Below, in pieces: positions 9,996 to 64,000 of a stretch of DNA of 64,000 nucleotides; within the stretch, counting starts at the first letter, position 1, and the number at the start of each line of letters is the position of its first letter. The position numbers were made by a program, and so were the translations under genes. Origin of the DNA: Limnohabitans sp. G3-2 (GTDB lineage: Bacteria; Pseudomonadota; Gammaproteobacteria; Burkholderiales; Burkholderiaceae_C); NCBI RefSeq assembly GCF_002778275.1, contig NZ_NESG01000002.1, positions 248,001 to 312,000 of the forward strand. Reading direction: 5' to 3'. Below the pieces are notes generated by a model that saw only the letters and a program-made list of their open reading frames with translations, searched no databases and was not told the origin of the DNA.

Positions 9996-10646
9996 GTGGC
10001 CAAAACCCTTGTTTCATCCCCCAGCCGCTCCACCGACAAACCTGCTGCTTCAGGCAAACGCATTCAGGTGCGCCGCTCGGGTGTGCATGGCAAAGGCGTC
10101 TTCGCGCTGCAGGACATCGCCAAAGGCGAAACCCTGATCGAGTACGTGGGCGAGGTCATCAGCTGGGACGAAGCGCAAGACCGCCACCCCCACGACCCCC
10201 AAGACCCGAACCACACCTTTTACTTCCATGTGAACGAAGACCGTGTGATTGACGCGCTGTTTGGCGGCAACTCCTCGCGCTGGATCAACCACAGCTGCAA
10301 GCCCAATTGCGAAGCCGACGAAGACAATGACCGCATCTTCATCAAAGCGATCCGCAACATCAAAGCGGGCGAAGAGCTGAACTACGACTACGGTCTGATC
10401 ATCGACGAGCCCTACACCAAGAAGCTCAAGGCCGAATACCCCTGCTGGTGCGGTGCCAAGAACTGCCGCGGCACTTTGCTCTCGCCCAAAGACCGCGCAG
10501 ACACCCCCCCCATTCCCAAACAAAAAAAGACCGCCTCGGCAGACAAGGCCAAATCGAAGGCCAAGCCTGCAAAGCCTGCAAAGCCAGCTAAGCCTGTAAA
10601 GCCTGTAAAGCCTGCCAAGGCAGACAAGCCCAGCAAAAAGCGCTGA
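9996..10646 (+). CDS. SET-domain protein-lysine N-methyltransferase
   Basis: Predicted S-adenosylmethionine-dependent methyltransferase acting on protein lysines. The SET fold runs from about residue 22 (RIQVRRSGVHGKGVFA) to 133, with NHSC at 98-101 and GEELNYDYG at 125-133 forming the pseudoknot and active site. A complete post-SET zinc motif follows (Cys150, Cys152, Cys157 in CWCGAKNCRG, completed by the Cys of NHSC). Residues 170-216 form a basic tail of repeated Ala-Lys-Pro/Val-Lys-Pro triplets coded by near-identical 9-bp DNA repeats. Translation starts at GTG 9996. It is divergent from topB, whose own Lys/Ala tail is a conceivable substrate (inference). Confidence 0.9.
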   Translation: MAKTLVSSPSRSTDKPAASGKRIQVRRSGVHGKGVFALQDIAKGETLIEYVGEVISWDEAQDRHPHDPQDPNHTFYFHVNEDRVIDALFGGNSSRWINHSCKPNCEADEDNDRIFIKAIRNIKAGEELNYDYGLIIDEPYTKKLKAEYPCWCGAKNCRGTLLSPKDRADTPPIPKQKKTASADKAKSKAKPAKPAKPAKPVKPVKPAKADKPSKKR

Positions 10647-10673: not shown

Positions 10674-10762
10674 GTAGGAGGCCGCCCCTGCGGCCGAATG
10701 CGCTCAAAGCTTTGCGGGCGTTTGAGATGCGCCAACCTTCGCGAGCCGGGGCACGCGCCCAC
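10674..10762. repeat. Degenerate REP-like palindrome pair
   Basis: An outward-diverged copy of the REP pair found in the 16939-17392 array. A GTAGGAG head and GGCCGC/GCGGCC stem start at 10674, and an inverted TTCGCGAGC partner with a mutated second arm ends at 10762. It lies between the SET gene and birA. Confidence 0.75.
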
Positions 10763-16459: not shown

Positions 16460-16918
16460 TTGAACAAGCCTGGCTTTCAACCCTCGCTCAAGGGGCGCGC
16501 TCTGCGCCTCTTGAGCCAGCGTGAACACTCGCGCACGGAGCTGGAACGCAAACTGGCCCCGCACGAGGAAGTGCCCGGCGAGCTGGCCAAAGCACTCGAC
16601 GAATTGCAGGCGCGGGACTTCATCAACGACGGGCGAGCGATTGAATCGGTGGTGCACCGCCGCGCAGGCAAACTGGGCGCGGCACGCGTCAAGCAAGAGC
16701 TGGCCGCAAAGGGTTTGTCGGGTGAGGCCGTGGCCGCCGCCATGGCGGGTTTGCGAGAGACCGAACTGGACCGCGCACTGGGCGTCTGGCGCAAAAAGTT
16801 TGGGCGCCCAGCCACTGACCCGAACGAGCGGGCCAAACAAATCCGGTTCTTATTGACCCGCGGCTTCAACGCCGAGGTGGTGCGCAAGATCGTGCAAGGC
16901 GCAGACGAAGACATTTGA
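16460..16918 (+). CDS. recX: Regulatory protein RecX
   Basis: RecX binds RecA filaments and restrains RecA activity. This 152-residue protein has the three-helix repeat layout of the family. It begins near LKGRALRLLSQREHSRTELERKL, of which the key features are the Arg/Leu-rich first helix and the SRTELERKL motif, and it ends with RFLLTRGFNAEVVRKIV. The start is a TTG at 16460. It sits 24 bp after recA, so the two are probably co-transcribed with partial attenuation. The REP-like array begins 20 bp after its stop. Confidence 0.93.
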   Translation: MNKPGFQPSLKGRALRLLSQREHSRTELERKLAPHEEVPGELAKALDELQARDFINDGRAIESVVHRRAGKLGAARVKQELAAKGLSGEAVAAAMAGLRETELDRALGVWRKKFGRPATDPNERAKQIRFLLTRGFNAEVVRKIVQGADEDI

Positions 16919-16938
16919 GCCCGAAGATCTTGCGCCCT

Positions 16939-17392
16939 TGTGGGAGGCCGCCACTGCGGCCGAATGACGGGCTTGTGGGAGGCCGCCCCTGCGGCCGAAT
17001 GGCGGGTTCAGCGGTGTGCCCTCCTTCGCGAGCAGGGGCTCGCTCCCACGCAGAGCAGCCCGAACCGGCAATGCAGGAATTTCGTGGGAGGCCGCCCCTG
17101 CGGCCGAATGGCGGGTTCAGCGGTGCCCTCATTCGCGAGCAGGGGCTCGCTCCCACGCAGAGCGCCCGAACCGGCAATGCAGGAATTTCGTGGGAGGCCG
17201 CCCCTGCGGCCGAATGGTGGGTTCAGCGGTGTCCTCATTCGCGAGCAGGGGCTCGCTCCCACGCAGAGCAGCCCGAACCGGCAATGCAGGAATTTCGTGG
17301 GAGGCCGCCCCTGCGGCCGAATGGCGGGTTCAACGGGTCATCTGCATTCGCGAGCAGGGGCTCGCTCCTACGGGGCGGGGGCTTGCTCCCAC
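16939..17392. repeat. Tandem REP-like palindrome array, about 4 units of 106-109 bp
   Basis: Four tandem units start at 16975, 17084, 17190 and 17297, with an extra half unit at 16939. Each unit holds hairpin A (head GTGGGAG, stem GGCCGC/GCGGCC around CCCCT, tail CGAAT) and, in inverted orientation, hairpin B (tail TTCG, stem GCGAGC/GCTCGC around AGGG, head CTCCCAC). The spacer between B and the next A contains CCCGAACCGGCAATGCAGG. The organisation matches REP/BIME elements of gamma- and betaproteobacteria. It lies between the convergent ends of recX and argC. No RAYT transposase is in the window. Confidence 0.93.
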
Positions 17393-17424
17393 GGGTCAGG
17401 GGCTGGCGCCACAGGGGCAGGCGC

Positions 17425-17445
17425 CAAGAACACTCTGGGAGAGTG
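17425..17445 (-). terminator. Weak hairpin terminator after argC
   Basis: 6-bp stem CACTCT/AGAGTG (17431-17436 and 17440-17445) directly after the argC stop, followed on the minus strand by TTCTT. A second perfect stem, TGGCGCC/GGCGCCA, lies just beyond. The T-run is poor. Confidence 0.4.
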
Positions 17446-17447
17446 GT

Positions 17448-18371
17448 TTACAAGCCCAGCATCAAGCCGATGTTTTGCACCGCCGCGCCACTGGCGCCTT
17501 TGCCCAAGTTGTCCAGACGGGCGATCACCACCGCTTGGCGGGCCTCTTCGTTGGCGAACACCCGGATTTCAAGCTGGTTGGTGTCGTTCAAGGCGGTGGC
17601 GTCGAGCTTGGCGTCCGCCGTGGCGGGCAACACACGGACCCAGCCACCCGCTTCTTGGCTGGCGGCGTAATGCGCCTGCAAAGCTGCGTGCAGATCGGCA
17701 CCTGTGGGTTTGCCGGGCAATGTGTCCAGATGCAAAGGCAACTGCACCAGCATGCCTTGGCGGAAATTGCCCACGGCTGGCACAAACAAAGGGCGGCAGG
17801 TCAGCCCGGTGTAGCGCATGATTTCGGGAATGTGTTTGTGCTTGAGGCCCAGAGCATAGGCTTCATACAGGGGGGCTTTGCCGGATTCGTAATCCTCGAT
17901 CATGGTTCGGCCGCCACCGGAGTAACCACTCACAGAAGGCAAACAGACCGCAAAGTCCCGCGGCATCAGGCCCGCATCCACCAATGGGCGCAAGATCGAG
18001 ATGGCGCCCGTGGCGTAACAGCCGGGATTGGCCACGCGCTGGGCTTGGCGCACTGCAGCCAACTGGTCTGCGGCCAGTTCTGGAAAGCCAAACACCCAGT
18101 CCGGGTGGCAACGGTGGGCGGTGGAGGCATCCACGATGCGGGGCTTGCGCCCGGGCAAGCTGTCGATCATGGCCACGGATTCGATGGCGGCATCGTCGTG
18201 CAGGCACAGCACCACCAAATCGGCGGCGGCCATCAACTCGCGTTTGGCTTCGGGGTCTTTGCGGCGGGCCGGGTCGATGCTGAGCACCTCGACCTGGGGC
18301 ATCAACGCCAAACGCTCACGGATTTGCAAACCTGTGGTGCCGGCTTCGCCATCGATGAATATTTTGGCCAT
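17448..18371 (-). CDS. argC: N-acetyl-gamma-glutamyl-phosphate reductase (short, type 2 form)
   Basis: Third step of arginine biosynthesis: NADPH-dependent reduction of N-acetylglutamyl 5-phosphate to the semialdehyde. At 307 residues it belongs to the shorter of the two ArgC forms. The N-terminal motif [13 protein letters not shown] is the dinucleotide-binding loop, and catalytic Cys118 lies in [18 protein letters not shown] and the HKHIPEI segment complete the active site. It is monocistronic here. Its 3' end abuts the REP-like array, and its start lies 174 bp from the divergent sucC. Confidence 0.95.
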
Positions 18372-27922: not shown

Positions 27923-27985
27923 GTGGGAGCGCGCCCCTGCGCGCGAATGCGTCTGGCAAATTCGGCCGCAGGGGCGGCCTCCAAC
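27923..27985. repeat. REP-like palindrome pair between yaeQ and purB
   Basis: Hairpin with head GTGGGAG and stem GCGCGC/GCGCGC around CCCCT (27923-27949), then an inverted partner with stem GGCCGC/GCGGCC (27960-27985). The stem differs from the array copies at both arms in a compensatory way, while the GGGAG head, CCCCT loop and CGAAT tail are kept. Confidence 0.85.
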
Positions 27986-62503: not shown

Positions 62504-64000
62504 TCAGGGTTTCCAGCGTTTGAGCAGCAAAGCATTGGCCATGACGCTCACCGAGCTGAGCGCCATGGCCGCGCCCGCCATCATGGGGTTGAGGTAACCC
62601 AAGGCGGCCAAAGGGATGCCCGCCACGTTGTAGGCAAAAGCCCAAAAGAGGTTCTGCCGGATCTTGGCCACGGTGCGGGCCGAGATGTCGAGCGCCGCGC
62701 CCACCAAGGCTACATCGCCACGCATGAGGGTGATGCCCGCCGCATGCATGGCCACATCGGTGCCGTTGCCCATGGCCATGCCCACATCGGCGGCGGCCAA
62801 GGCCGGTGCATCGTTCACCCCGTCGCCCACCATGGCCACCACCTGGCCAGCCGCACGCAGTTTTTGCACCTGCGCCGACTTGTCAGCGGGCAGCACATCG
62901 GCCAACACCTCGCCCATTTCGGGGCGCAAGCCCAAGCGGCGTGCCATGGCTTGCGCGGCGGCTGGGTTGTCACCCGAGATCATCACCAGCTTCAGGCCGC
63001 GCTCGCGCAGTGCGCTCAAGGCTTGCGCAGCGCCCGCTTTGGGCTCGTCGCCAAAACCCATGAGCAACAGGGCCTGCAAGCCGGCATCGGTGCGCTCGGC
63101 CAAAGCCGACAGACTGGCACCTTGCGCGCCCAACGCGTCGATGTCTTGCTGCCAAATGCCGATGTCCAAGCCTTCGTCTTGGAGCCAGCGCAAACTGCCC
63201 AAGAGCAGCTGCCGGCCGTCCACTTTGGCCAGCACGCCTTTGCCCGGCACCGCTTGCACGTCTTGGGCGGTGGGGCCTGTCAGGCCCTGCGCCTGGGCGG
63301 CACCCACCACCGCTCGCGCCAAAGGGTGTTCACTGCCGCTTTGCACCCGTGCGGCCAGGGCCAGGGCCATTTGGGCATCGTGTCCTGGAGAGGGCACATG
63401 GGCCAACAAACGCGGCTGGCCCACGGTGAGCGTGCCGGTTTTGTCAAAGGCCACGGTTTGCACGCGGTGCGCCAACTCCAGTGCCTGCACGTCTTTGATC
63501 AAAATGCCGTGCTTGGCCGCCACACCGGTGCCCGCCATGATGGCCACGGGTGTGGCCAGACCCAGGGCGCAGGGGCAGGCAATGACGAGCACCGCGACAG
63601 CGTGGATGAGCGCCGTTTCAAAATGGGCCCCCATCACCATCCATGCACCGAAGGTGAGCAAGGCGATCAGCAGCACCACGGGCACAAACACTTCGGCCAC
63701 TTGGTCCACCAAGCGCTGAATGGGCGCTTTGGCCGCTTGCGCATCTTCTACCAGGCGAATGATGCGCGAGAGCACGGTTTCGTGGCCCACGGCGGTGACG
63801 CGCATGAGCACACGCCCTTCGCCATTGATGGCGCCGCCCGTCAAGGCGGCACCGGGCGCTTTGACCACAGGCAAGGGCTCCCCAGTCAGCATGGATTCGT
63901 CCACCTGGGTTTGGCCTTCGACCAGTTCGCCGTCCAGCGGAAAACGTTCCCCGGGCCGAACCACAATGCGGTCGCCCACCAGGATTTCATCTACTGGCAC
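62504..64000 (-). CDS. copA: Copper-translocating P1B-type ATPase (N-terminus off window)
   Basis: Heavy-metal-exporting P-type ATPase. The last 498 residues are visible, and the N-terminal metal-binding domain and first helices lie right of the window. Actuator motif TGEPLPV, intramembrane metal site [11 protein letters not shown] (CPC), phosphorylation site DKTGTLT, HP-type motif SEHPLA, nucleotide-binding [10 protein letters not shown], and the last two helices with [10 protein letters not shown] and [15 protein letters not shown], which carry the Tyr-Asn and Met-Ser residues typical of Cu(I) pumps, are all present. It probably exports Cu(I) from the cytoplasm. Confidence 0.95.

Follow-up and report, generated by a model that had tools for sequence, protein, structure and literature searches.

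REPs, a RAYT gene set between two different REPs (E. coli), a betaproteobacterial RAYT (Thauera) and REPINs in genomes without a RAYT are all already in print. In E. coli, two different REPs, Y and Z2, bound the RAYT gene, BIMEs lie to either side of it, and within BIMEs the REPs alternate in orientation (PMC2817692). Pseudomonas fluorescens SBW25 carries 430 inverted REP doublets with a less conserved spacer (PMC3116915). In the betaproteobacterium Thauera, REPs occur together with a Pseudomonas-like RAYT, for which the authors infer horizontal acquisition (PMC2817692). E. coli genomes without a RAYT that still carry REPINs have been reported, and REPINs are commoner there where a RAYT is present (PMC8049555). 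Our literature search returned no report of REPs in Limnohabitans, and the genus is unmentioned in the main text of PMC3733652 and PMC6006769, which is no proof of absence.

A REP array in Limnohabitans sp. G3-2

The analyzed stretch of 64,000 nucleotides (the window) comes from the 3.25 Mb genome of the freshwater bacterium Limnohabitans sp. G3-2, referred to as G000 among the 90 genomes of the genus. It contains an array of nine 24-nt REP hairpins (16942-17369) in the order A> A> <B A> <B A> <B A> <B, with a tandem unit of about 107 bp; TRF returned a period of 106 with 3.7 copies at 16975-17372. Each REP consists of GT(G/A)GGA, a 6-nt arm, the loop CCCT, a second 6-nt arm and GAAT, with the arms GGCCGC/GCGGCC in class A and GCGAGC/GCTCGC in class B. 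The array lies between two convergent genes that we take, following the earlier sequence-only reading, to be recX and argC, and not at recA-recX, where that reading had also placed it. With up to three mismatches allowed, the window yields 14 pattern matches versus 2.13 expected in dinucleotide shuffles, the largest shuffled count being 6 and none of 100 shuffles reaching 14. Nine of these matches form the array, two lie at 10676-10760, two at 27925-27983, and one, at 63859, is unrelated. The features of the three loci are as follows (single REPs by pattern match, gene names as above).

10676-10699, plus strand: REP A of the second locus, head GTAGGAG
10737-10760, minus strand: decayed REP B of the second locus, 3 mismatches
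16460-16918, plus strand: recX, left neighbor of the array, 152 aa
16940-17371, no strand: nine-REP array between recX (plus) and argC (minus), by pattern match and TRF
16942-16965, plus strand: REP A with loop CACT, 1 mismatch, first unit of the array
16977-17000, plus strand: REP A, exact
17024-17047, minus strand: REP B, 1 mismatch
17086-17109, plus strand: REP A, exact
17131-17154, minus strand: REP B, exact
17192-17215, plus strand: REP A, exact
17237-17260, minus strand: REP B, exact
17299-17322, plus strand: REP A, exact
17346-17369, minus strand: REP B, head GTAGGAG, 1 mismatch
17372-17424, no strand: decayed half-REP units past the array, by eye, with TRF rows at 17354-17421 and 17397-17426
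17448-18371, minus strand: argC, right neighbor, convergent with recX, 307 aa
27925-27948, plus strand: REP B-type of the third locus, stem GCGCGC/GCGCGC
27960-27983, minus strand: REP A of the third locus, 1 mismatch

As judged by eye, all three loci are intergenic. The head, loop and tail that the sequence-only reading had described as common to them are indeed shared, and the array and both other loci are real. The latter, at 10674-10762 and 27923-27985, had been called single pairs; they belong to the same family, but the B arm at 10737-10760 has decayed. Just before the second locus, at the end of a coding frame, the window also holds AAGCCTGCA-type 9/27-bp repeats (10560-10630).

Across the genome, the hairpin search that had been proposed, run with the pattern GGGAGN5CCCTGN4CGAAT, gave 322 matches when one mismatch was tolerated (170 on one strand, 152 on the other), compared with none for the reversed pattern used as a control. 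With 175 exact matches among them, the family exceeds the 100 copies per genome that mark REP elements.

Stem pairing was examined in a sample of 464 kb; besides the window, it includes 20 stretches of 20 kb that were picked, with one exception, around known sites. A search free of any stem constraint found 167 sites here, and 2 with the control pattern. Six stem pairs are formed in 154 of the sites, five in 11 and four in 2. Overall, pairing reaches 98.5% of the pair cells, while re-dealing the right arms 1000 times gave 73.8% (maximum 79.1%). The two arms therefore vary jointly. The GT(A/G)G head typical of REPs is present in 162 of the 167 sites (GTGG 144, GTAG 18). Class A comprises 69 sites and class B 66, while compensatory minor stems are few: GGCTGC/GCAGCC (7), GCGCGC/GCGCGC (3), GGCAGC/GCTGCC (2), GGTCGC/GCGACC (1) and GCCCGC/GCGGGC (1). 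Stem covariation is thus mainly a matter of two fixed classes, and their joint share of 135 sites rules out many independent events. Of the proposal that the hairpin rather than the sequence is maintained, the pairing holds, but the variation is mostly that between the two ends of one asymmetric element rather than free drift. A strand-selection test counted G-T against A-C pairs at 7 versus 7 in G000, 9 versus 3 in G169 and 0 versus 1 in G154.

This asymmetry is apparent from the arrangement of REPs lying within 150 nt of each other in the sampled 464 kb. Of 88 opposite-strand neighbor pairs, 86 combine the two classes (+A-B 29, +B-A 21, -B+A 20, -A+B 16), the other two being +A-A and +B-B. 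Same-strand neighbors are like with like in 24 of 24 (+A+A 11, -A-A 5, -B-B 5, +B+B 3), with no mixture of A and B. Apart from two exceptions, every cluster has A on one strand and B on the other. From this strand and class grammar, it follows that the unit is a single asymmetric REPIN, A>-spacer-<B, in either orientation and often in tandem. The inverted pairs, as in BIMEs, had been recognized correctly in the sequence-only reading.

The spacing is regular, as in BIMEs and REPINs: among 50 convergent A-B pairs, the gap is 21-24 nt in 36 and 19-24 nt in 37. Taking one REPIN per locus, the arms are 95.5% identical between loci for a gap of 21 (8 elements) and 97.5% for a gap of 22 (11 elements), whereas the corresponding spacers reach only 40.5% and 41.8%, with 27% after shuffling. 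The arms, and not the spacers, are therefore the conserved part, another trait of BIMEs and REPINs; by these identities, the spacer retains a faint common ancestry and the arms are almost fixed. Of the 55 clusters in the sampled stretches, which were picked around known sites, 20 have at least four REPs, 3 have three, 20 have two and 12 have one, so that tandem amplification, which had been supposed to be unusual, is not unusual here. Home-made gene calling left 27 of the 55 clusters unplaced, for which reason counts of gene orientation were dropped.

In single-stranded DNA folding, the idealized A-spacer-B element forms a cloverleaf, and controls with one REP type form a long hairpin that is 18-20 kcal/mol more stable. 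Natural strands (n = 76) fold into a cloverleaf in 55 cases, into other forms in 18 and into a long hairpin in 3, two of these from a one-type pair. Idealized GCCCCG/GCGxCG elements, in turn, give an interrupted long hairpin. Since only 55 of 76 natural strands adopt the cloverleaf and the GCCCCG/GCGxCG elements fold otherwise, we do not claim it as the form of the REPIN.

A candidate cognate RAYT, not found in the REP-richest genome

The family is distributed unevenly. At up to one mismatch, 64 of the 90 Limnohabitans genomes have at least one REP match, with a range from 0 to 322 and the highest count in G000. For 11 genomes, we determined the two-class share, defined as degenerate two-class matches over all general-pattern matches at up to one mismatch. 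It amounts to 151/322 in G000, 111/299 in G169, 82/240 in G209, 43/157 in G216 and 42/125 in G172, followed by 10/52 in G161, 10/46 in G154, 17/41 in G168 and 14/39 in G151. All other genomes have at most 12 matches, among them G178 (8/12) and G170 (0/11); G000 therefore ranks highest in two-class share among the REP-rich genomes, not among all. In a draw of 150 genomes of the family, an exact match was found only in G000 and in 0 of the 149 others. A genome scan gave, among the 80 entries listed, 18 with at least two matches, of which 14 belong to Limnohabitans and 4 to one Burkholderiaceae assembly. The resemblance of the head to Pseudomonas REPs had suggested a tie to that genus; no Pseudomonas appears in the titles among the matches listed (110 stretches), and the RAYT clade described below occurs in 24 of 90 Limnohabitans genomes. 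As far as the titles among the matches listed go, a Pseudomonas origin of the family is not supported.

In G154 and G172, a gene for a RAYT of 147 aa lies amid A and B REPs, between genes which, from their sequences, are presumably fdhD and an ABC permease gene. The two proteins are 90% identical and match NF047646 with 145.7 (G154) and 145 bits (G172; cut-off 80; E 8.7e-43) and the Y1/HUH domain PF01797 with 27.5 and 27.3 bits (cut-off 23). Alignment with E. coli TnpAREP (PDB 4er8; E 7.2e-9) makes the HLH and an aligned tyrosine visible. In G169, the RAYT is split between two contigs (C1:1225978 and C2:332-547); both pieces have A/B REPs next to them, and the C-terminal one adjoins fdhD. Seemingly the same inverted end sequence is seen at both break points, which suggests an insertion and then a rearrangement.

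The corresponding gap between fdhD and the permease gene in G000 is assembled unbroken, contains four REPs (<A B> <A B>) and shows nothing recognizable of the RAYT. A protein search of the G000 assembly with the cognate RAYT gave a best match of 31% identity. At the DNA level, the gene and its edges returned 37 short matches up to E 10, scattered over the contigs, the best being 36 bp at 83% (E 0.0026). A RAYT flanked by A/B REPs was accordingly found in the congeners G154 and G172 and not in G000 itself. Thus, the idea of RAYT-driven spread gains a cognate gene with A/B REPs on both sides in congeners, but none was found in the genome for which it was put forward.

Nor does the 1.5 kb examined next to fdhD contain a RAYT in G168, G151 and G209. 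The G216 contig ends just past fdhD, amid three A REPs, and G161 has one B-like REP near fdhD and a RAYT with another REP type elsewhere. REP count and RAYT are not coupled, a point against the explanation given below: genomes without a RAYT have 322 (G000), 240 (G209) and 157 (G216) matches, the one with two RAYT pieces has 299 (G169), and those with the gene have 125 (G172) and 46 (G154). The completeness of these assemblies is 84% for G209, 82% for G216 and 100% for G000, the latter in 25 contigs.

At orthologous sites, REPs are present in some genomes and absent from others. We sought argC in 20 genomes and matched it in 19; in 11 of them, G000 included, recX adjoins it in the fetched stretch. 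The comparison of the array between genomes, as had been advised, found it in G000 only and in none of the 10 others. In nine of these, the recX-argC gap is free of REPs at up to three mismatches; that of G154 holds a single B REP and a doubtful A. Nine G000 clusters, the array included, could be compared with the fetched parts of G169, where three sites are empty and six occupied. The third locus of the window also occurs in G169; two changes in the A stem there give G-T wobbles at two positions of the REP strand (by eye). The recX-argC gap of G169 (L309 9932-10131) has a different inverted repeat, CCTTTTGAGGGCTCCCC ... GGGGAGAGCCGTCAAAAGG, where G000 has the array.

Taken together, the REP hairpins form an apparently mobile family with hundreds of copies in G000, a REP/REPIN family whose cognate RAYT was probably lost. 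Very probably, the G000 REPs are REPIN copies that were moved by the 147-aa RAYT before its loss. The mobile unit would be a non-autonomous element of about 70 bp with inverted A and B REPs and a spacer of mostly 21-24 nt. An HUH-type RAYT, in this case the 147-aa protein encoded between fdhD and the ABC permease gene in related species, would recognize each REP as a folded single strand by its GTGGGA or GTAGGA head, CCCT loop and paired stem. The constant head and loop and the changing stems would fit a reading of head, loop and pairing. By analogy with TnpAREP of E. coli and Stenotrophomonas (PMC8266576), the RAYT may cut near the REP, and it would copy the unit to new sites. Subsequent tandem duplication could then build arrays such as the one beside recX. 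Loss of the RAYT from G000, and not its original absence, is the most likely course, and a recent loss at that, because G000 has more REPs than any other genome of the genus and retains many standard copies. Dating the loss by a two-gene species tree was given up, as support was 54-57% at the forks that decide between loss and late arrival.

Alternatively, the host may keep the hairpins for work of its own, at transcript 3' ends, in mRNA protection or in binding gyrase or another protein, with the RAYT link being historical. The position of the array between convergent genes, the big REP population without a detected RAYT and the much better conservation of arms than of spacers would all agree with such a use. 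However, a scan of 16800-17600 for intrinsic terminators (a stem, then a T run) found 0 sites, none of 10 relatives has the array at the corresponding position (G154 has one REP there), and copy number varies from 0 to 322 within one genus, and we consider a host function an unlikely explanation. It is less likely still that the strain has the cognate RAYT and the assembly misses it. The 25 contigs leave gaps that could conceal the gene, and REP-rich loci can break assemblies, but completeness is 100% and the fdhD-permease gap is unbroken and without a RAYT.

The search of G000 for a RAYT gene, also advised at the outset, returned two Y1 transposase genes (contigs C21 and C24), neither of them the cognate one. 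The C24 gene (G000:C24:95326-95736) encodes a second RAYT with 175 bits on NF047646 and is flanked by GTAG-type palindromes of its own (GTAGGTCGGTGGCT-type, GTAGGTCGGTGGCTTNAGC...). The C21 gene (G000:C21:208219-208608) encodes a Y1 transposase of 231 aa that scores 79.1 bits on NF047646, just under the cut-off of 80, and its flanks have short AATTGGG(G/A)TC-type inverted repeats. Some Y1 match is present in 85 of 90 genomes of the genus. With two such genes at hand, one of them a high-scoring RAYT, A/B REPs might be moved in trans and the family might still be active. We regard this as very unlikely: no A/B REP lies within 1.5 kb of either gene when three mismatches are allowed, the C24 gene shares 31% identity with the cognate RAYT and has a palindrome motif of its own with no further exact copy in the sampled 464 kb, and genes of the C21 kind, going by score and length, seem to occur across most of the genus irrespective of REP count. 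Chance palindromes or low-complexity sequence, which the recurrence of short GC-rich motifs in G000 might bring to mind, are already refuted by 322 matches versus 0 for the control and by the strict strand and class grammar, and carry next to no probability.

One-stem and two-stem REP sets within one RAYT clade

The RAYT clade (at least 53% identity) comprises 28 loci in 24 of the 90 genomes of the genus. REPs were searched within 600 nt of 27 clade loci, with the G169 pieces taken as one and locus G159:C50 left out, and of two distant ones (33-35%), giving 30 rows. At least two REPs on each strand were found at 20 loci, 16 of them two-stem, with sense and antisense stems that differ and form disjoint sets, and 4 one-stem. 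The stem sets are as follows.

Two-stem, A/B: G154, G172, G169
Two-stem, GCGGCG or GCGACG with GCCCCG: G170, G221, G156, G225, G162, G191, G161
Two-stem, bulged GCGCAC with GCGCGC: G164, G159, G190, G189
Two-stem, GCGCAC with GCCCAC: G195
Two-stem, GCCAGC with GCTTGC: G152
One-stem, GCGGTC: G215, G220, G218
One-stem, GCCCAC: G170 at its second RAYT, with loops one base longer on one strand than on the other

At the remaining nine loci, REPs of this form are too few or lacking, and one of the nine (G185) is mixed. At G162:C45 (L209/L223), same-strand GCCCCG REPs with a spacing of 40 bp lie downstream of the RAYT. The stem sets largely follow the RAYT clades of the tree (28 rows, G161 and G169 left out; 8 of 25 inner branches well supported). 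With 16 two-stem and 4 one-stem loci, the two-stem form of the REPIN is therefore frequent, though not a necessity, and the four one-stem loci weaken the notion that two different stems are a requirement.

A broader reading, which we offer tentatively and think rather doubtful as a whole, is that one RAYT family has had its REP stems repeatedly rewritten, with switches between one and two stems and with head and loop staying similar. The two ends of a two-stem element would fold on themselves and pair less with each other, and so be distinguishable, and the population would stay large, perhaps growing, after the RAYT is gone.

Comparison with known systems

Two aspects are worth following, namely that copy number peaks where no RAYT was detected and that one RAYT family mixes one-stem with two-stem sets. 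Limnohabitans offers a natural series of RAYTs that are 55-100% identical to the A/B one, many of them beside their own REP set. As the series spans perfect and bulged stems and one or two stem types, it would make it possible to test directly which of head, loop and stem the RAYT reads and why the ends differ. REP-rich genomes in which the RAYT is present, broken or undetected bear on whether REPIN persistence needs the RAYT. The trend of RAYT-REPIN co-occurrence reported for E. coli (PMC8049555) is not the pattern in Limnohabitans.

The closest counterpart is the E. coli REP/BIME system with TnpAREP (yafM), which shares the different REPs around the RAYT and a sequence-related HUH Y1 protein (PDB 4er8). 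Unlike the bulged palindromes of E. coli, the Limnohabitans A/B REPs have perfect 6-bp stems with a 4-nt loop. They also have their own REP sequences and a RAYT of about 147 aa, which was not found in the genome with most copies. The REPINs of P. fluorescens (GI-GIII) are likewise inverted REP doublets with a less conserved spacer, but those doublets are symmetrical and predicted to form one long hairpin, whereas the Limnohabitans doublets are of two types. REPtron Sm (group 3) of Stenotrophomonas maltophilia resembles the present REPs in its GTAG-type head, perfect palindrome and short loop and differs in its 8-bp stem and 3-nt GCT loop (PMC8266576). With Thauera, Limnohabitans has in common betaproteobacterial REPs with a RAYT; in contrast to Thauera, its RAYT family has diversified within one genus.
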